Shown in pieces: positions 40,077-45,013 of a stretch of 64,000 nt of DNA. Both the position numbers and the translations under genes were made by a program. Within the stretch, counting starts at the first letter, position 1. Each line of letters opens with the position of its first letter. Origin of the DNA: Alphaproteobacteria bacterium (GTDB taxonomy: Bacteria > Pseudomonadota > Alphaproteobacteria > Caulobacterales > Parvularculaceae); assembly GCA_016125425.1 (NCBI GenBank), contig WGLT01000002.1, positions 124,001 to 188,000 on the forward strand, written 5' to 3'. The notes under the pieces were generated by a model. It did no database searches. It was given only the letters and a program-made list of their open reading frames with translations, and had not been told where the DNA came from.

Positions 40077-40151
40077 GCGGGCGTAGCTCAGGGGTAGAGC
40101 ACAACCTTGCCAAGGTTGGGGTCGTGAGTTCGAATCTCATCGCCCGCTCCA
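40077..40151 (+). tRNA. tRNA-Gly (anticodon GCC)
   Basis: Complete cloverleaf with encoded CCA. Acceptor GCGGGCG (40077-40083) pairs with CGCCCGC (40141-40147); D arm GCTCAGGGGTAGAGC; anticodon stem CAACC/GGTTG around TTGCCAA, anticodon GCC at 40109-40111; T arm GTGAG-TTCGAAT-CTCAT. The gene lies 36 bases from the stop of the TIR-WD40 gene, and tRNA genes often serve as integration sites. Confidence 0.97.
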
Positions 40152-40187: not shown

Positions 40188-42272
40188 TCAGCGCCGGCCG
40201 CCGAAGGCGAGCGCCGCGCCATATCGGAGAGCGGCGAGGATCACCGCGGGGGCGAATGCGGCGGTCAGCCACAAGATGAAGGCTTCGAGGGGCAGCGCCG
40301 TCAGCATCAAGGCCCCTGCATAGGCGAAGCCGAGGGTCATGACCGCGACCACTGCGAATTTCGACGGCCCGCGAAGGCGCGCCAGCGCGAATACGCCTTT
40401 CAGCAGCAGCCCGATCGCGAGGAGCGCAAAAGCGAGCGCGAGCCCCTTGCCGAAGGACAGCAGGATGAAATCGCCGTCCGAGCGCACATTCACCGGCGTC
40501 GGCGCGCGCGATGCGTAAAGCGCCGGCGGCGCGTCGAGCGCGACGGGGCTGCGCAGCGCCGGCTTGACGTGCCCGACGACCGTCAGCTCATTGCCCGTTT
40601 CGATGTCGCGAACGATCGCCGTATTATCCCGCGAGCCAGAAACATAGGCTTTGGCCGCATCGCTTGCAGCGAGGGCCCGCACCGCATCCGTGTGGTCATG
40701 ATGCTCGCTCATCAAAACGCCGGACGCAGCGTCGACGATGCGCACTTCTCCGTCGCCGGACGATATGAGCAACAACTTGCCGCCTTCTGCAAAAGCGACG
40801 TTGAACACGGGCGTCTTGTAGGAAATGCGGCGCAACAGCCTTCCGTCGTCCGCGCTCCATATATAGGCGTCCCCATTTTCGGAGCCGGCGGCGAGCCGCG
40901 CGCCGGAAGGCGCGTAACGGATGCTGGTCAACGCGCCGTCCGCCCCGCGAAGCCGCATGAGCGCGCGTCCCGCGGAGACGCTCCACACGATCGCCGCGCC
41001 GTCCTTTGAGGCCGAGGCGAGCCGCGCGCCGGAAGGACTGAAGTCAAGCGCGACCACGTCGTCGCTATGGCCGGTCAGGGTCCCGGCGAGTTCGCCCGTG
41101 TCGGCCCGCCAGAGACGAACAGTGTTGTCGCCCGATCCCGTCGCGATGAGATCGCCTTTCGGGCTGAATTCGGCGGCGTAAACGGAATTTCGGTGCCCTT
41201 TCAGGATGAGAACCGCCTTCCGGCTGCGCAAGTCCCAAACCCTTGCGGTCAGATCGCGCGACGCCGTCACGAGGCGATCGCCGGCCCCGTTGAAATCGAC
41301 GCTCCACACCCAGTTATCATGGCCGCGCAGTTCGGCGCGCTCGACGCCGTAGCGCGAGTCCCAGACTCTCGCCGTGCCGTCGTCCGAGGCGGTGGCGAAC
41401 AGCTTTCCGTCCTTGGAAAAGGCCGCGGCGTTTATGTCCGCGCCCTCTATGCCCCGCATGCGCACCGCATTGAGAGCGGCCGCGTATATCCTCGCCTCCA
41501 GGATCGCCGGCGCGGTCGCAACCAGCGCTGCGCAAATCAGAGCGAAGTAGGAGCGAGAGATCAAACGCAGCGAAGCCGCGCCGCTTCGTCCGTCTGCGGC
41601 GAATGTCAGATAGCGCGAAACGAAAACGAGAACGCCGACAATCGCGACAAAATACGGTCTCAACGAGGGCAGCGCGAAATTGTCGAGATAGGCGAGGCCG
41701 GCGAACAGCCCTGCGACAATAACCGCGAGAACGAACGCGTGGAGAAAAAGCGCCGCGCGCACTTGCGAGCCCGTGATCGTTCCCCGCTGAGGTTTGCGGC
41801 GCGCCGGCTTAGCCGGCGTCGGTTCTTTCTTTCGCTCAGCCTCCGGTTTCGGTTCGGGCGCAGGCCTGGGGTCAGGGCGCGCGCCGCCAAGAGTTTCTTC
41901 AACCGTGTCGAGAAAGGCGATAAGCGAGCGGTCCGTCGGCGAACCGCGCCACCGCGTTAAATCAGCGGTCTGAATTTGCCGGAATCCGAGGGGGATGTCG
42001 ACGAGGTCGAGCAATACCGGAAAGAGGATGCCGCGCTGCGCGCCGTCGTCAGCTTCGTCCGCAACAAAACGGGACGCGACGGAGTTCACAGACCACGCGA
42101 CGATGACGCATCTCGTCGAGGCGAGAGCGGCTGTAATCTCCTCGCGAAATCCTGCGCCGGTCTTGATATGCGGATCCCACCAGACCTTCAGACCGCGCTT
42201 TGTCAAGCTCTCGGCGATGACGGCGACTTTGGCGCGATCTTCGCGCGCATAAGAAATGAAGATGTCGACCAT
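40188..42272 (-). CDS. TIR domain-six TM-WD40 propeller protein (putative defence component)
   Basis: 694 aa from ATG 42272; the track's GTG start adds six residues. Residues 1-120 are a TIR domain (MVDIFISYAREDRAKV..., GLKVWWDPHI) with the catalytic-position Glu 73 in ASRFVADEADDG, so NAD-cleaving activity is plausible. A Pro/Lys-rich linker (120-170) leads to helices at about 171-196, 206-224 and 241-260, then seven WD40 blades (275-575; e.g. ASDDGTARVWD, GSGDNTVRLW), then helices at 609-630, 638-660 and 663-684. Positive charges flank the predicted inside loops, placing TIR in the cytoplasm and the propeller in the periplasm. 71 bases downstream of the RyR-SLOG gene, same strand. Function is inferred. 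Confidence 0.85.
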   Translation of the reverse strand: MVDIFISYAREDRAKVAVIAESLTKRGLKVWWDPHIKTGAGFREEITAALASTRCVIVAWSVNSVASRFVADEADDGAQRGILFPVLLDLVDIPLGFRQIQTADLTRWRGSPTDRSLIAFLDTVEETLGGARPDPRPAPEPKPEAERKKEPTPAKPARRKPQRGTITGSQVRAALFLHAFVLAVIVAGLFAGLAYLDNFALPSLRPYFVAIVGVLVFVSRYLTFAADGRSGAASLRLISRSYFALICAALVATAPAILEARIYAAALNAVRMRGIEGADINAAAFSKDGKLFATASDDGTARVWDSRYGVERAELRGHDNWVWSVDFNGAGDRLVTASRDLTARVWDLRSRKAVLILKGHRNSVYAAEFSPKGDLIATGSGDNTVRLWRADTGELAGTLTGHSDDVVALDFSPSGARLASASKDGAAIVWSVSAGRALMRLRGADGALTSIRYAPSGARLAAGSENGDAYIWSADDGRLLRRISYKTPVFNVAFAEGGKLLLISSGDGEVRIVDAASGVLMSEHHDHTDAVRALAASDAAKAYVSGSRDNTAIVRDIETGNELTVVGHVKPALRSPVALDAPPALYASRAPTPVNVRSDGDFILLSFGKGLALAFALLAIGLLLKGVFALARLRGPSKFAVVAVMTLGFAYAGALMLTALPLEAFILWLTAAFAPAVILAALRYGAALAFGGRR

Positions 42273-42343: not shown

Positions 42344-44800
42344 TCAGGCAGGCGCTATGATCTCGGCCGGCGATATTTCCGGTTGGGCGTAATAATTTCC
42401 CGCAGTGCAATATTCCGGCGGCGGCCCGCCCCGCGCGCGCCATGCGACGATATCGGCCGTGCCGCCGAGACCGCGCGACCGCTCCCCGTCCCAAACCGCC
42501 AGCAGCAAGTCTGCTCGCTCCGCGATATAGGCCCCGGCGAGCGCATATTGCTGTCGCCGCGCAACCGGATCGTCGCCTTCCGACCGGCTCACATCCGCAA
42601 GATCCCCGAAGCGCAGCGGCATCTCAATATAGCGCTCGCTTTTTGCAACAAGACGCAAGAACCGATCGAGCTCTTCTCGGCCTTCGTCCGAAAAGTCCTG
42701 TATCAATGCTTCAAAGGGCAGCGGCAGCGGCACGATGTAAGGCACGCCGAGCTCGAGCGCGATTTCAGCCCCGATAATATCCGTACCCGGCGCCAGCGAC
42801 GTCAGCATCACGGCTTCGCGGTCCGGGCGGGCGTTGATCTCTTTGAGCAGGCGCGCGCGAAGCGCGGCGCGGACACGGTCCGCATCGAACGGACGGTGCG
42901 CGCCGGAGCGGTGACCGACGACGCCGATCGTGAAGGAAGGCCGGGCGTCAAGGCCCGCGGCCTTCAGCGCCTGGCGCATCTGGTCGACAATGCGATAGTC
43001 GACGCGTGTTTCGGCGTCCGGGATCTCGCTCCACGGGCGCAAAAGATTGTGCCTGCGCGCGGCGTCCACGCGCTTTTCGTCAAAGGTCCACCCGGCGAGA
43101 AATCTCTCATTCATCCAGCGATGGTGTTCGACCAATGCGAGCTTTTGCACGTCTTCCGGACTGACATTCATGGGCCGTTCGGAAGGCGCCGAGAGCTCGT
43201 CCGCAGCTTTTGTGATGCGCATACGGAGCACGCGCGCCTTGGCGAACAGATGATCGGCGCTCTGCCGGCAAGAATCCCTGAATTCGGGCGCCAGCGCGGC
43301 CCAGCTTTGCTCCGATCGGCGCTGAATGGCGGCGGCGTCCGCGCCGGGCTGCCGGGTCAGCGTCCGCTGCTCGATATAGAGCGCATGGATGCGCTTGGCG
43401 ACAGCCTCGCGCCGCGGATCGATCAGCGTCGGGATGAAAAGGCGGCCTTTGTCGGCCGACAACAGATCTTCGAGCGTGCCGAAGGCGAACAGGCCGTCGG
43501 GCATTTCCCGTTCGGCGACGCTCGCGTCGAGAGCGAATGCGCCGTCGAGCCGCATCCTGTCGATGTTGGATCGTAGCAGCTCGCCGATCCCGCGCGTGCG
43601 CGCCAACCGAACCAGGATGGGCGCGTTCAGGCGCCGCGATACGTGTCGGGCCTTTTGCGGGCGGACCAGCAGAAGCCGGCGAAGCGACAGGGCGACGCTC
43701 GCCGCTTTCTCCGCTTGCGCGCAGCAAACGACATGGAGCGTCGCATCTTCCGGGATCTTTTGGTAATCGAAGTCGGCGAGACCCGTAGGGTAAAAGGCGA
43801 TCTTTCTATACTCGATATCCGCGATTTCGTCGATCGCCGGATGGGCCGCCCGCAGAAGATCGACGTCGTTTTCGTCCTCTTCGGCCAGGATGGTGAACTT
43901 GACGCGTTCCGTGCAGAGGGTGACGCATTGGCGCAAGGTCTCGGTAATGACCTGTATGCCGAGGGAGTTGAGACCATAAACAGCGATGTGAATGCGCTTG
44001 TGACCGAAGGCGTCAGCGTAAATGTCCGGCGGATGAGCGCGCAGAAGCTGTCGGGCGGCAAGTTCGTCGAGACTGAAAAACCGTGTGTGCAGGCTTTCGG
44101 AAAGGCCTGTGAACTTGAAATATTCGCCGAGGCGGGCGCCGATGGACGCCTCTGTAAGCCCGACCCAAAGCTCAATTTCCGCCGGTTCCGATTTTCTGCT
44201 GGGCGCGGCTCCGGATATTGTCGTATTCGCCGCGAGGATAAATTGCAGCGCGTCGGTCACGCCGGCATGCAGAAATATCGCCTGATTCGCCTTTGAAAGC
44301 CTTGCGCGCGTTAGCGTTTCCGGCGCGCCGGGATCGCCCGGCACTATGATCGCGCCGCTTTTTCTCGCCCGCTGCGCGAATGTTGTATCCAGATTCTTGT
44401 CGATGATGACGGAACGCAGATCAGGGTCATCTTCCCGCAACGCGTCAAGGAGCATCAGACTCTCTTCGCTGAGACCGATCAGGACGAGATGGCCGGACAG
44501 CTGCGAGAGTTTCACGGCGCGTACGACATTCCGGGCCAGATCGCGCGCGAAGAGTTCGATCAGGCCATATACGGCGAACACCGGCGCTATGAAGGCCTGG
44601 ACCAGTATGACCGGATTATCGATATGTTCTTGAATGACCCATGAGCCGTTCAGGGGAAACAGGGTCAGCACCTTGTAGATGTCATGGGCGTAATTGCCGT
44701 CGCTGCCGCCAAACAGACGCAGCGCGACGACCCCGATCAGGACGAAGAGAATGAAAGCGCTGACGATAGCGGCAAGGCGTCGCGATGCGGATTCCCCCAT
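42344..44800 (-). CDS. Membrane protein with RCK/TrkA-N-like, RyR and SLOG-like domains
   Basis: 818 aa from ATG 44800; the track start is a TTG 23 codons upstream. Two hydrophobic helices (9-30, 62-85) precede two Rossmann/TrkA-N-like regions (HLVLIGLSEESLMLLDALRE at 104-123; IHIAVYGLNSLGIQVITETLR at 270-290). Residues 545-612 match the RyR domain (VEHHRWMNERFLAGWTF, SEIPDAETRVDYRIVDQM). The C-terminus (622-795) is SLOG/LOG-like: FTIGVVGHRS, MLTSLAPGTDIIGAEIALELG, DLLLAVWDGE and GGTADIV. The 2TM-RCK plan resembles potassium channels but no TVGYG filter is present. SLOG domains sense nucleotide signals; I infer a membrane effector gated by a TIR-made ligand. Sampled lines are only 52-60% GC. 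Confidence 0.82.
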   Translation of the reverse strand: MGESASRRLAAIVSAFILFVLIGVVALRLFGGSDGNYAHDIYKVLTLFPLNGSWVIQEHIDNPVILVQAFIAPVFAVYGLIELFARDLARNVVRAVKLSQLSGHLVLIGLSEESLMLLDALREDDPDLRSVIIDKNLDTTFAQRARKSGAIIVPGDPGAPETLTRARLSKANQAIFLHAGVTDALQFILAANTTISGAAPSRKSEPAEIELWVGLTEASIGARLGEYFKFTGLSESLHTRFFSLDELAARQLLRAHPPDIYADAFGHKRIHIAVYGLNSLGIQVITETLRQCVTLCTERVKFTILAEEDENDVDLLRAAHPAIDEIADIEYRKIAFYPTGLADFDYQKIPEDATLHVVCCAQAEKAASVALSLRRLLLVRPQKARHVSRRLNAPILVRLARTRGIGELLRSNIDRMRLDGAFALDASVAEREMPDGLFAFGTLEDLLSADKGRLFIPTLIDPRREAVAKRIHALYIEQRTLTRQPGADAAAIQRRSEQSWAALAPEFRDSCRQSADHLFAKARVLRMRITKAADELSAPSERPMNVSPEDVQKLALVEHHRWMNERFLAGWTFDEKRVDAARRHNLLRPWSEIPDAETRVDYRIVDQMRQALKAAGLDARPSFTIGVVGHRSGAHRPFDADRVRAALRARLLKEINARPDREAVMLTSLAPGTDIIGAEIALELGVPYIVPLPLPFEALIQDFSDEGREELDRFLRLVAKSERYIEMPLRFGDLADVSRSEGDDPVARRQQYALAGAYIAERADLLLAVWDGERSRGLGGTADIVAWRARGGPPPEYCTAGNYYAQPEISPAEIIAPA

Positions 44801-45013
44801 AGTCTTTTCGCCTGCGCGCTGTTTCGGGCCGTTTGGCGGCCTTCGTGCAAAAGTCCGGACAAAGAACAATTACCGGTGAAGCCGAATGCGGCGGCGGCGC
44901 GGTTTCTTTGCTCCTCAAAGCGTTCGATTTGATTCCGCCGCGCGCCTGAAGAAGCCTAGCGGCGGCCCGAAGCGCGCGTCAAGCAGTGCGGGCTTCGGCG
45001 TCCTCCGGCCCGG

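Follow-up and report, generated by a model that had tools for sequence, protein, structure and literature searches.

The question raised by this locus is whether a bacterial protein that joins a TIR domain to a WD40 propeller is a membrane receptor with its sensor outside the cytoplasm, and to what such a receptor might signal. The window, i.e., the whole stretch of DNA that was analysed, consists of 64,000 nucleotides from an alphaproteobacterium of the family Parvularculaceae (GCA_016125425.1, contig WGLT01000002.1). A preliminary description of one of its reading frames had proposed a cytoplasmic TIR domain, three helices, an extracytoplasmic seven-bladed propeller, and three further helices that return the C-terminus to the cytoplasm. 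The features of this gene, with the tRNA gene that adjoins it, are as follows:

40077..40151 (+): tRNA-Gly, immediately past the TIR gene on its 3' side, at the edge of the two-gene module
40188..42272 (-): TIR-3TM-WD40-3TM gene, P0001, 694 aa, ATG start
41853..42272 (-): TIR_2 domain, residues 1-140 (Pfam, PDB alignment, relatives)
41772..41882 (-): Pro/Lys/Arg-rich linker preceding TM1, residues 131-167, where the 'inside' signal is strongest
41685..41771 (-): TM1, residues 168-196 (GES scan and AlphaFold)
41583..41669 (-): TM2, residues 202-230 (GES scan and AlphaFold), lowest hydropathy of the six
41493..41555 (-): TM3, residues 240-260 (GES scan and AlphaFold)
40572..41435 (-): seven-bladed WD40 propeller, residues 280-567 (Pfam, AlphaFold, Foldseek), predicted periplasmic
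40383..40475 (-): TM4, residues 600-630 (GES scan and AlphaFold)
40296..40373 (-): TM5, residues 634-659 (GES scan and AlphaFold)
40200..40289 (-): TM6, residues 662-691 (GES scan and AlphaFold)

The TIR-3TM-WD40-3TM layout of this reading frame is real and was confirmed by several methods. The TIR_2 family (PF13676) was matched by Pfam at residues 4-108 of the 694-aa protein with 73.2 bits, against a gathering cutoff of 28, and the WD40 repeats were matched with an E value of 6e-54. In the AlphaFold model (pLDDT 78.7, from an input alignment of 20 sequences), six long helices were observed together with 28 strands at residues 280-567, which make up seven four-stranded blades. This model was matched in Foldseek to solved seven-bladed WD40 proteins with target TM-scores of 0.92-0.96, one of them bacterial (5yzv), and the propeller of the preliminary description is thus upheld by structural prediction. 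Outside the TIR domain and the propeller, a GES hydropathy scan revealed six segments (173-193, 204-224, 238-258, 608-628, 637-657, and 660-680, numbered from D3). The scan and the AlphaFold model agree on the six membrane helices that had been described, of which TM2 is weakly hydrophobic and has the lowest GES score (1.19 in the window protein, 0.74-1.5 across its relatives). The basic segments to which attention had been drawn, RRKPQR, RSGAASLRLISR, and ARLRGPSK, were all found in the translated reading frame. The PDB sequence matches of the TIR domain were bacterial TIR NADases; in the PDB alignment its residue E73 falls on the Glu conserved among the solved enzymes and, like D33, was invariant in 20/20 relatives.

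About 20 relatives, with 45-49% identity to the window protein, share the same layout, which indicates that it did not arise by chance. A search with the membrane segments, in which each species was represented by one genome, led to 21 loci, all of them alphaproteobacterial, that belong mainly to the Parvularculaceae (Marinicaulis MAGs, Parvularcula lutaonensis, and P. mediterranea) and otherwise to a few unclassified alphaproteobacterial MAGs. In a class-wide sample this protein family was present in 4/385 genomes from two families; it is a rare yet well-kept architecture.

On which side of the membrane the propeller lies was examined by comparing the K+R content of the loops within each half of the protein. 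In the N-terminal half, the linker and the TM2-3 loop, both predicted to be internal, exceeded the TM1-2 loop and the TM3 exit in 20/20 rows of the alignment. Independently of this, the TM4-5 loop and the C-terminal tail exceeded the TM4 entry and the TM5-6 loop in all 19/19 complete rows, and the charges of the C-terminal half alone place the propeller outside, regardless of TM2. The cysteines of the propeller provide a further indication. Among the 19 complete propellers, 12 contain no Cys and seven contain exactly two, both of which sit within a single inserted loop that follows the first blade and varies in length, although these rows share ancestry and no formal statistic attaches to the pattern. 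The two residues would thus have been gained and lost as a pair, as is expected of a disulfide, a metal site being the alternative.

Other TIR proteins support the same orientation. In distant TIR-WD40 proteins (L009, L015, L025, and L160), a single hydrophobic segment separates the TIR from the WD40 domain, by which the sides of both are nearly forced, and a second, weak segment was seen in this position in L158 and marginally in L015. The sister receptors of the TIR-1TM-FGE type contain six Cys in the FGE domain, after the TM segment, in 16/16 copies, and likewise in L046/L047. For the TIR-1TM-FlgO-TPR type, all 11/11 Parvularculaceae copies examined have four Cys after the TM segment, in two pairs that are usually ten residues apart, whereas a homolog from another family (L157) has none there and this pattern is consequently not universal. 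At L124 5819-6778, just upstream of a TIR-WD40 gene, lies a gene for an FGE-sulfatase-like protein whose signal resembles a lipobox (GLMAGC), and this lipoprotein-like signal was counted as support for the outside topology.

The cytosolic location of APAF-1-like WD40 sensors would suit a different arrangement, in which only two of the three N-terminal helices cross the membrane, which would make the protein a cytosolic TIR-WD40 sensor with a membrane anchor. TM2, whose crude insertion energy reaches up to +3 kcal and whose GES scores are the lowest (0.74-1.5), is a natural candidate for the helix that does not insert. With the propeller in the cytoplasm, however, the C-terminal tail and the TM4-5 loop (2-7 K/R) would lie on the outer side and the TM5-6 loop, which has no K/R, on the inner side, while both the occurrence of either no or two Cys and the odd number of TM segments in the sister receptors would be left without explanation. 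We consider this arrangement quite improbable. As computed from loop charges, the Cys pattern, the single-TM relatives, and the sister receptors, the most likely topology has the TIR domain inside, the propeller outside the inner membrane, and the C-terminus inside, in keeping with the preliminary description.

A second gene, which the preliminary description had missed, lies on the same strand, 71 bp upstream of the ATG of the TIR gene; its reading frame is open from a TTG at 44869. Its features are:

42344..44800 (-): partner gene P0002, ~817 aa, 2TM + RCK-like + RyR + SLOG, ATG at 44800
44504..44800 (-): TM helices 3-29 and 63-99, separated by a short pore-like helix (structure model)
43601..44488 (-): RCK/TrkA_N-like Rossmann region (Pfam and fold; nearest folds the GsuK K+ channel, TrkA, MthK, and Slo1)
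42953..43150 (-): RyR domain PF02026 (Pfam; PDB matches to ryanodine receptors and bacterial RyR domains)
42356..42952 (-): probable SLOG domain (homology to the N-terminal SLOG of SLOG-SLATT proteins)

The RyR domain of the partner was recognised by Pfam with 33.2 bits (cutoff 27.4) and in a PDB profile search with an E value of 9e-24, and a trace of TrkA_N was also detected by Pfam. In Foldseek, the RyR part of the structure model (pLDDT 82, pTM 0.81) matched repeats of ryanodine receptors, some of them nucleotide-bound. The model points to a channel-like protein, for which ion conduction is uncertain, and no recognisable K+ filter was found in the 2TM segment. The window SLOG sequence by itself had no match in Pfam, and its assignment needed its relatives. 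The C-terminus of the partner shows 27-34% identity to the N-terminus of SLOG-SLATT proteins, the SLATT part of which matches DUF4231/SLATT_3. Three of 10 homologous SLOG members matched YAcAr weakly (best Pfam E 1e-4) and one matched YpsA (E 0.0095); the PDB match of SLOG to a YpsA structure was also weak (E 0.34). No match of the partner SLOG to the ThsA fold was present among the Foldseek matches listed for the whole model, which were dominated by RCK and RyR.

The association of these two genes was found to extend well beyond the window. Among the alphaproteobacterial SLOG-bearing membrane effectors with readable flanks, 27/27 were encoded beside, or one gene from, a gene for a TIR-TM-sensor protein; 25 of the 27 loci were unselected, L121 and L122 having been found via the TIR gene, and L150 and L152, which are cut by contig ends, were left out of the count. 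The RyR-TrkA-SLOG type of effector accompanies TIR-WD40 in the window and in P. mediterranea, TIR-FGE in two other genomes (G011 and G019), and, in a frameshifted copy, is one gene from TIR-TPR in G179. The SLOG-SLATT type accompanies TIR-WD40 in P. lutaonensis, L121, and L122, and TIR-FGE at fifteen Parvularculaceae loci, which represent largely one inherited arrangement and are not independent. It was further found one gene from TIR-TPR (G023), with TIR-FlgO-TPR (G288), and with TIR-1TM-WD40 (G164). In one split version, RyR-TrkA and SLOG are encoded by separate, adjacent genes (L158 3969-6470 and 924-4085) beside a TIR-WD40 gene. In Marinicaulis, the neighbour of the TIR-WD40 gene is a TIR-TPR gene; SLOG-SLATT is encoded elsewhere, together with its own TIR-FGE gene. 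The sensors (WD40, FGE, and TPR) and the effectors (RyR-channel-SLOG and SLOG-SLATT) are thus freely exchanged between loci. The pairs are variously tandem, convergent, or divergent, and because their orientations differ the link must have been kept through rearrangement.

A number of related genes were noted in the course of this survey. The G179 homolog of the partner (L103 3709-6213) is broken across two frames, or contains a sequencing error. The same SLOG also forms the C-terminus of a patatin-like phospholipase (L156 3830-5656), which is encoded on a short contig without a TIR gene and was left uncounted; its sequence points to a further membrane-acting SLOG effector. Some of the TIR-FGE receptors paired with SLOG-SLATT (L130 1811-3712 and similar) have a divergent TIR domain that falls below the Pfam cutoff. 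In another family of the order, a long TIR-1TM-WD40 protein with many repeats (L160 761-3739) is encoded by a gene that runs in the same direction as a SLOG-SLATT gene and overlaps its end. A TIR protein with approximately eight predicted TM helices (L159 7011-9035) lies roughly 2 kb from a RyR-TrkA gene. Proteins that combine a caspase-like domain with a WD40 propeller and what appears to be a signal sequence (L011 and L014 1111-3396), from another family of the order, look exported, yet they are not TIR receptors. A general link of RyR-TrkA proteins to TIR was rejected, as most of those lacking SLOG had no TIR gene within ~5 kb by a profile built from few sequences, which divergent TIRs may escape.

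At the genomic site itself, the interval from tRNA-Gly to hemC in a congener (G006) contains neither gene of the pair and has a short, unrelated ORF instead. The absence of both genes marks the module as an accessory one here, and, given the different short ORF in the congener, the tRNA-Gly site may be an insertion hot spot.

Based upon these observations, we favour, with a probability of roughly 0.58, a reading in which a membrane TIR receptor makes an NAD-derived messenger that acts upon a SLOG/RyR membrane effector. The TIR-WD40 protein would be an inner-membrane receptor with its propeller in the periplasm, flanked by three helices on each side, and its TIR domain in the cytoplasm. Binding of an envelope-borne cue by the propeller would bring TIR domains together, and the clustered domains, as their family and invariant Glu suggest, would cleave NAD+ to an ADP-ribose-type messenger. 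By analogy with the SLOG of ThsA, this messenger could bind SLOG and/or RyR of the 2TM-RCK channel-like partner. The activated partner would then pass ions or break the membrane potential and lead to arrest or death, as might be expected from its exchangeable membrane parts. In the relatives, the same receptor would act with a SLOG-SLATT membrane protein, and the same effectors with TIR-FGE or TIR-TPR receptors. The likeliest role for the pair is that of an anti-phage or anti-competitor alarm. Weighing against this reading are the low hydrophobicity of TM2, the lack of a recognisable K+ filter in the partner, the weak family matches of SLOG, the SLOG-less RyR-TrkA proteins that mostly had no TIR neighbour, the arrangement in Marinicaulis, and the want of a system-level match among the PADLOC and NCBIfam models.

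The same domains could also be ordered in the reverse direction, with the RyR/RCK/SLOG protein sensing ions or nucleotides, the TIR domain as the terminal, NAD+-depleting effector, and the propeller serving as a scaffold for assembly. NAD+ depletion is the effector function of several bacterial TIRs, and RCK and RyR are ligand-sensing modules, for which the fold matches included ADP-bound GsuK and an RyR3 repeat with ATP. However, it is the TIR partner that bears exchangeable, Cys-paired ectodomains, typical of inputs, and the SLOG partner that bears exchangeable membrane-acting parts (the RCK channel, SLATT, and one patatin), typical of outputs; a reversed flow of information is consequently judged unlikely. 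A receptor of the same topology might alternatively respond to envelope stress or nutrients, its TIR domain serving as a scaffold for other proteins with no enzymatic link to the neighbouring gene. This would fit the housekeeping genes (Pfam) that flank the module and the lack of a PADLOC match for the partner, no curated defence system having been called. The invariance of the catalytic Glu, the linkage with SLOG effectors in 27/27 cases and in mixed orientations, and the absence of the module from the tRNA-Gly/hemC site of the congener, as is seen for accessory modules, all argue against it, and we assign such a role a low probability.

The housekeeping surroundings, and the presence of one copy each of the partner and of the full-length receptor in the window genome, would also be compatible with a chance adjacency of the two genes. 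Matches to the query TIR or WD40 numbered at most ~17 per genome, of roughly 3000 genes; with so few TIR genes, random adjacency is expected at ~1% or less per locus, whereas the pairing recurs across several orientations and partner types, and we regard coincidence as very improbable.

In the favoured reading, that of a receptor signalling to a membrane effector, the two proteins resemble an alarm at the bacterial cell surface whose action is directed at the membrane of the cell itself. The TIR-SLOG systems known from bacteria have been described as intracellular sensors of infection, and an outward-looking TIR receptor would allow a response to attack or envelope damage before entry. The varied combinations of three sensors and several SLOG effectors provide a direct handle on the messenger-sensing domain, and the RyR-bearing version raises the testable question of whether a TIR product could be a ligand of RyR domains. 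More tentatively, and as a possibility that we hold to be doubtful, these proteins could constitute one family of transmembrane TIR receptors in bacteria, in which the periplasmic sensors (WD40, FGE, and TPR) can replace one another and the signal passes by an NAD-derived messenger to a membrane effector. In the version found in the window, the target would be an RyR-domain channel, and the system would be a prokaryotic counterpart of cyclic-ADP-ribose/ryanodine-receptor signalling with a Toll-like receptor at the surface as its driver.

The PADLOC and NCBIfam models gave no system-level match for the pair; with PADLOC, among the window proteins, the receptor received TIR- or WD40-level matches only and the partner none. 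In a literature search of partial coverage, which is no proof of novelty, no TIR receptor was found that has exchangeable sensors in the periplasm and is paired with SLOG/RyR channels, nor any account of RyR with SLOG and TIR, of TIR with FGE and TM segments, or of an extracytoplasmic sensor with a bacterial TIR. Nucleotide-signalling conflict systems composed of SLOG, SLATT, and TIR were reportedly described by Burroughs in 2015. The same domains have been predicted to form one nucleotide-driven, membrane-permeabilising network, with TIR-SLATT association and nucleotide-gated membrane effects (PMC9503650, PMC7159879), and TIR with SLATT has been predicted as an antiviral pairing (PMC9503650). 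The input in the present case differs, as it is a TM TIR receptor with an exchangeable, predicted periplasmic sensor, which is absent from the portions of those accounts covered here.

Thoeris, which comprises the TIR protein ThsB and a ThsA of the SIR2-SLOG or TM-macro type, the SLOG of ThsA binding a TIR product (PMC11204291), resembles the pair in that a TIR enzyme gene stands beside that of an effector containing SLOG or a membrane part and that an NAD-derived messenger is expected. The pair was rejected as a Thoeris system, since ThcB4 reached 19.5 bits against 220, no ThsA was found among the window proteins, and the partner has neither SIR2 nor macro. It also differs from Thoeris in that the TIR protein is a membrane receptor with a predicted extracytoplasmic sensor and the effector is 2TM-RCK-RyR-SLOG or SLOG-SLATT. 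By analogy, we infer a Thoeris-like logic with an extracytoplasmic input. The partner model shares its 2TM and RCK fold with the GsuK, MthK, and Slo channels, in contrast to which it has no recognisable K+ filter and has RyR and SLOG in addition.

For the receptor, the nearest parallel in layout is provided by the membrane Ser/Thr kinases of Planctomycetota, which are mostly of a single span and for which periplasmic WD40, TPR, and FGE domains have been reported (PMC11032199), i.e., the same three sensor modules, likewise predicted to be periplasmic. The earlier statement that most bacterial WD40 proteins are assumed to be cytosolic was, in view of these kinases, too strong. Unlike them, the proteins described here have a TIR output, no protein kinase being among the Pfam families listed for the TIR-WD40 protein, and the WD40 receptor has six TM segments. 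With animal Toll-like receptors, of which the preliminary description had been reminded, the likeness in layout stands, viz., an extracytoplasmic repeat sensor, a membrane passage, and a cytoplasmic TIR domain, but homology does not: the sensor is WD40 and not LRR, there are six TM segments and not one, and the TIR domain is N-terminal and not C-terminal. The bacterial protein is, moreover, likely an enzyme and not an adaptor-recruiting scaffold. Its Toll-like layout is convergent, and an outward-looking TIR receptor of this kind would parallel that of the animal receptors using unrelated parts.
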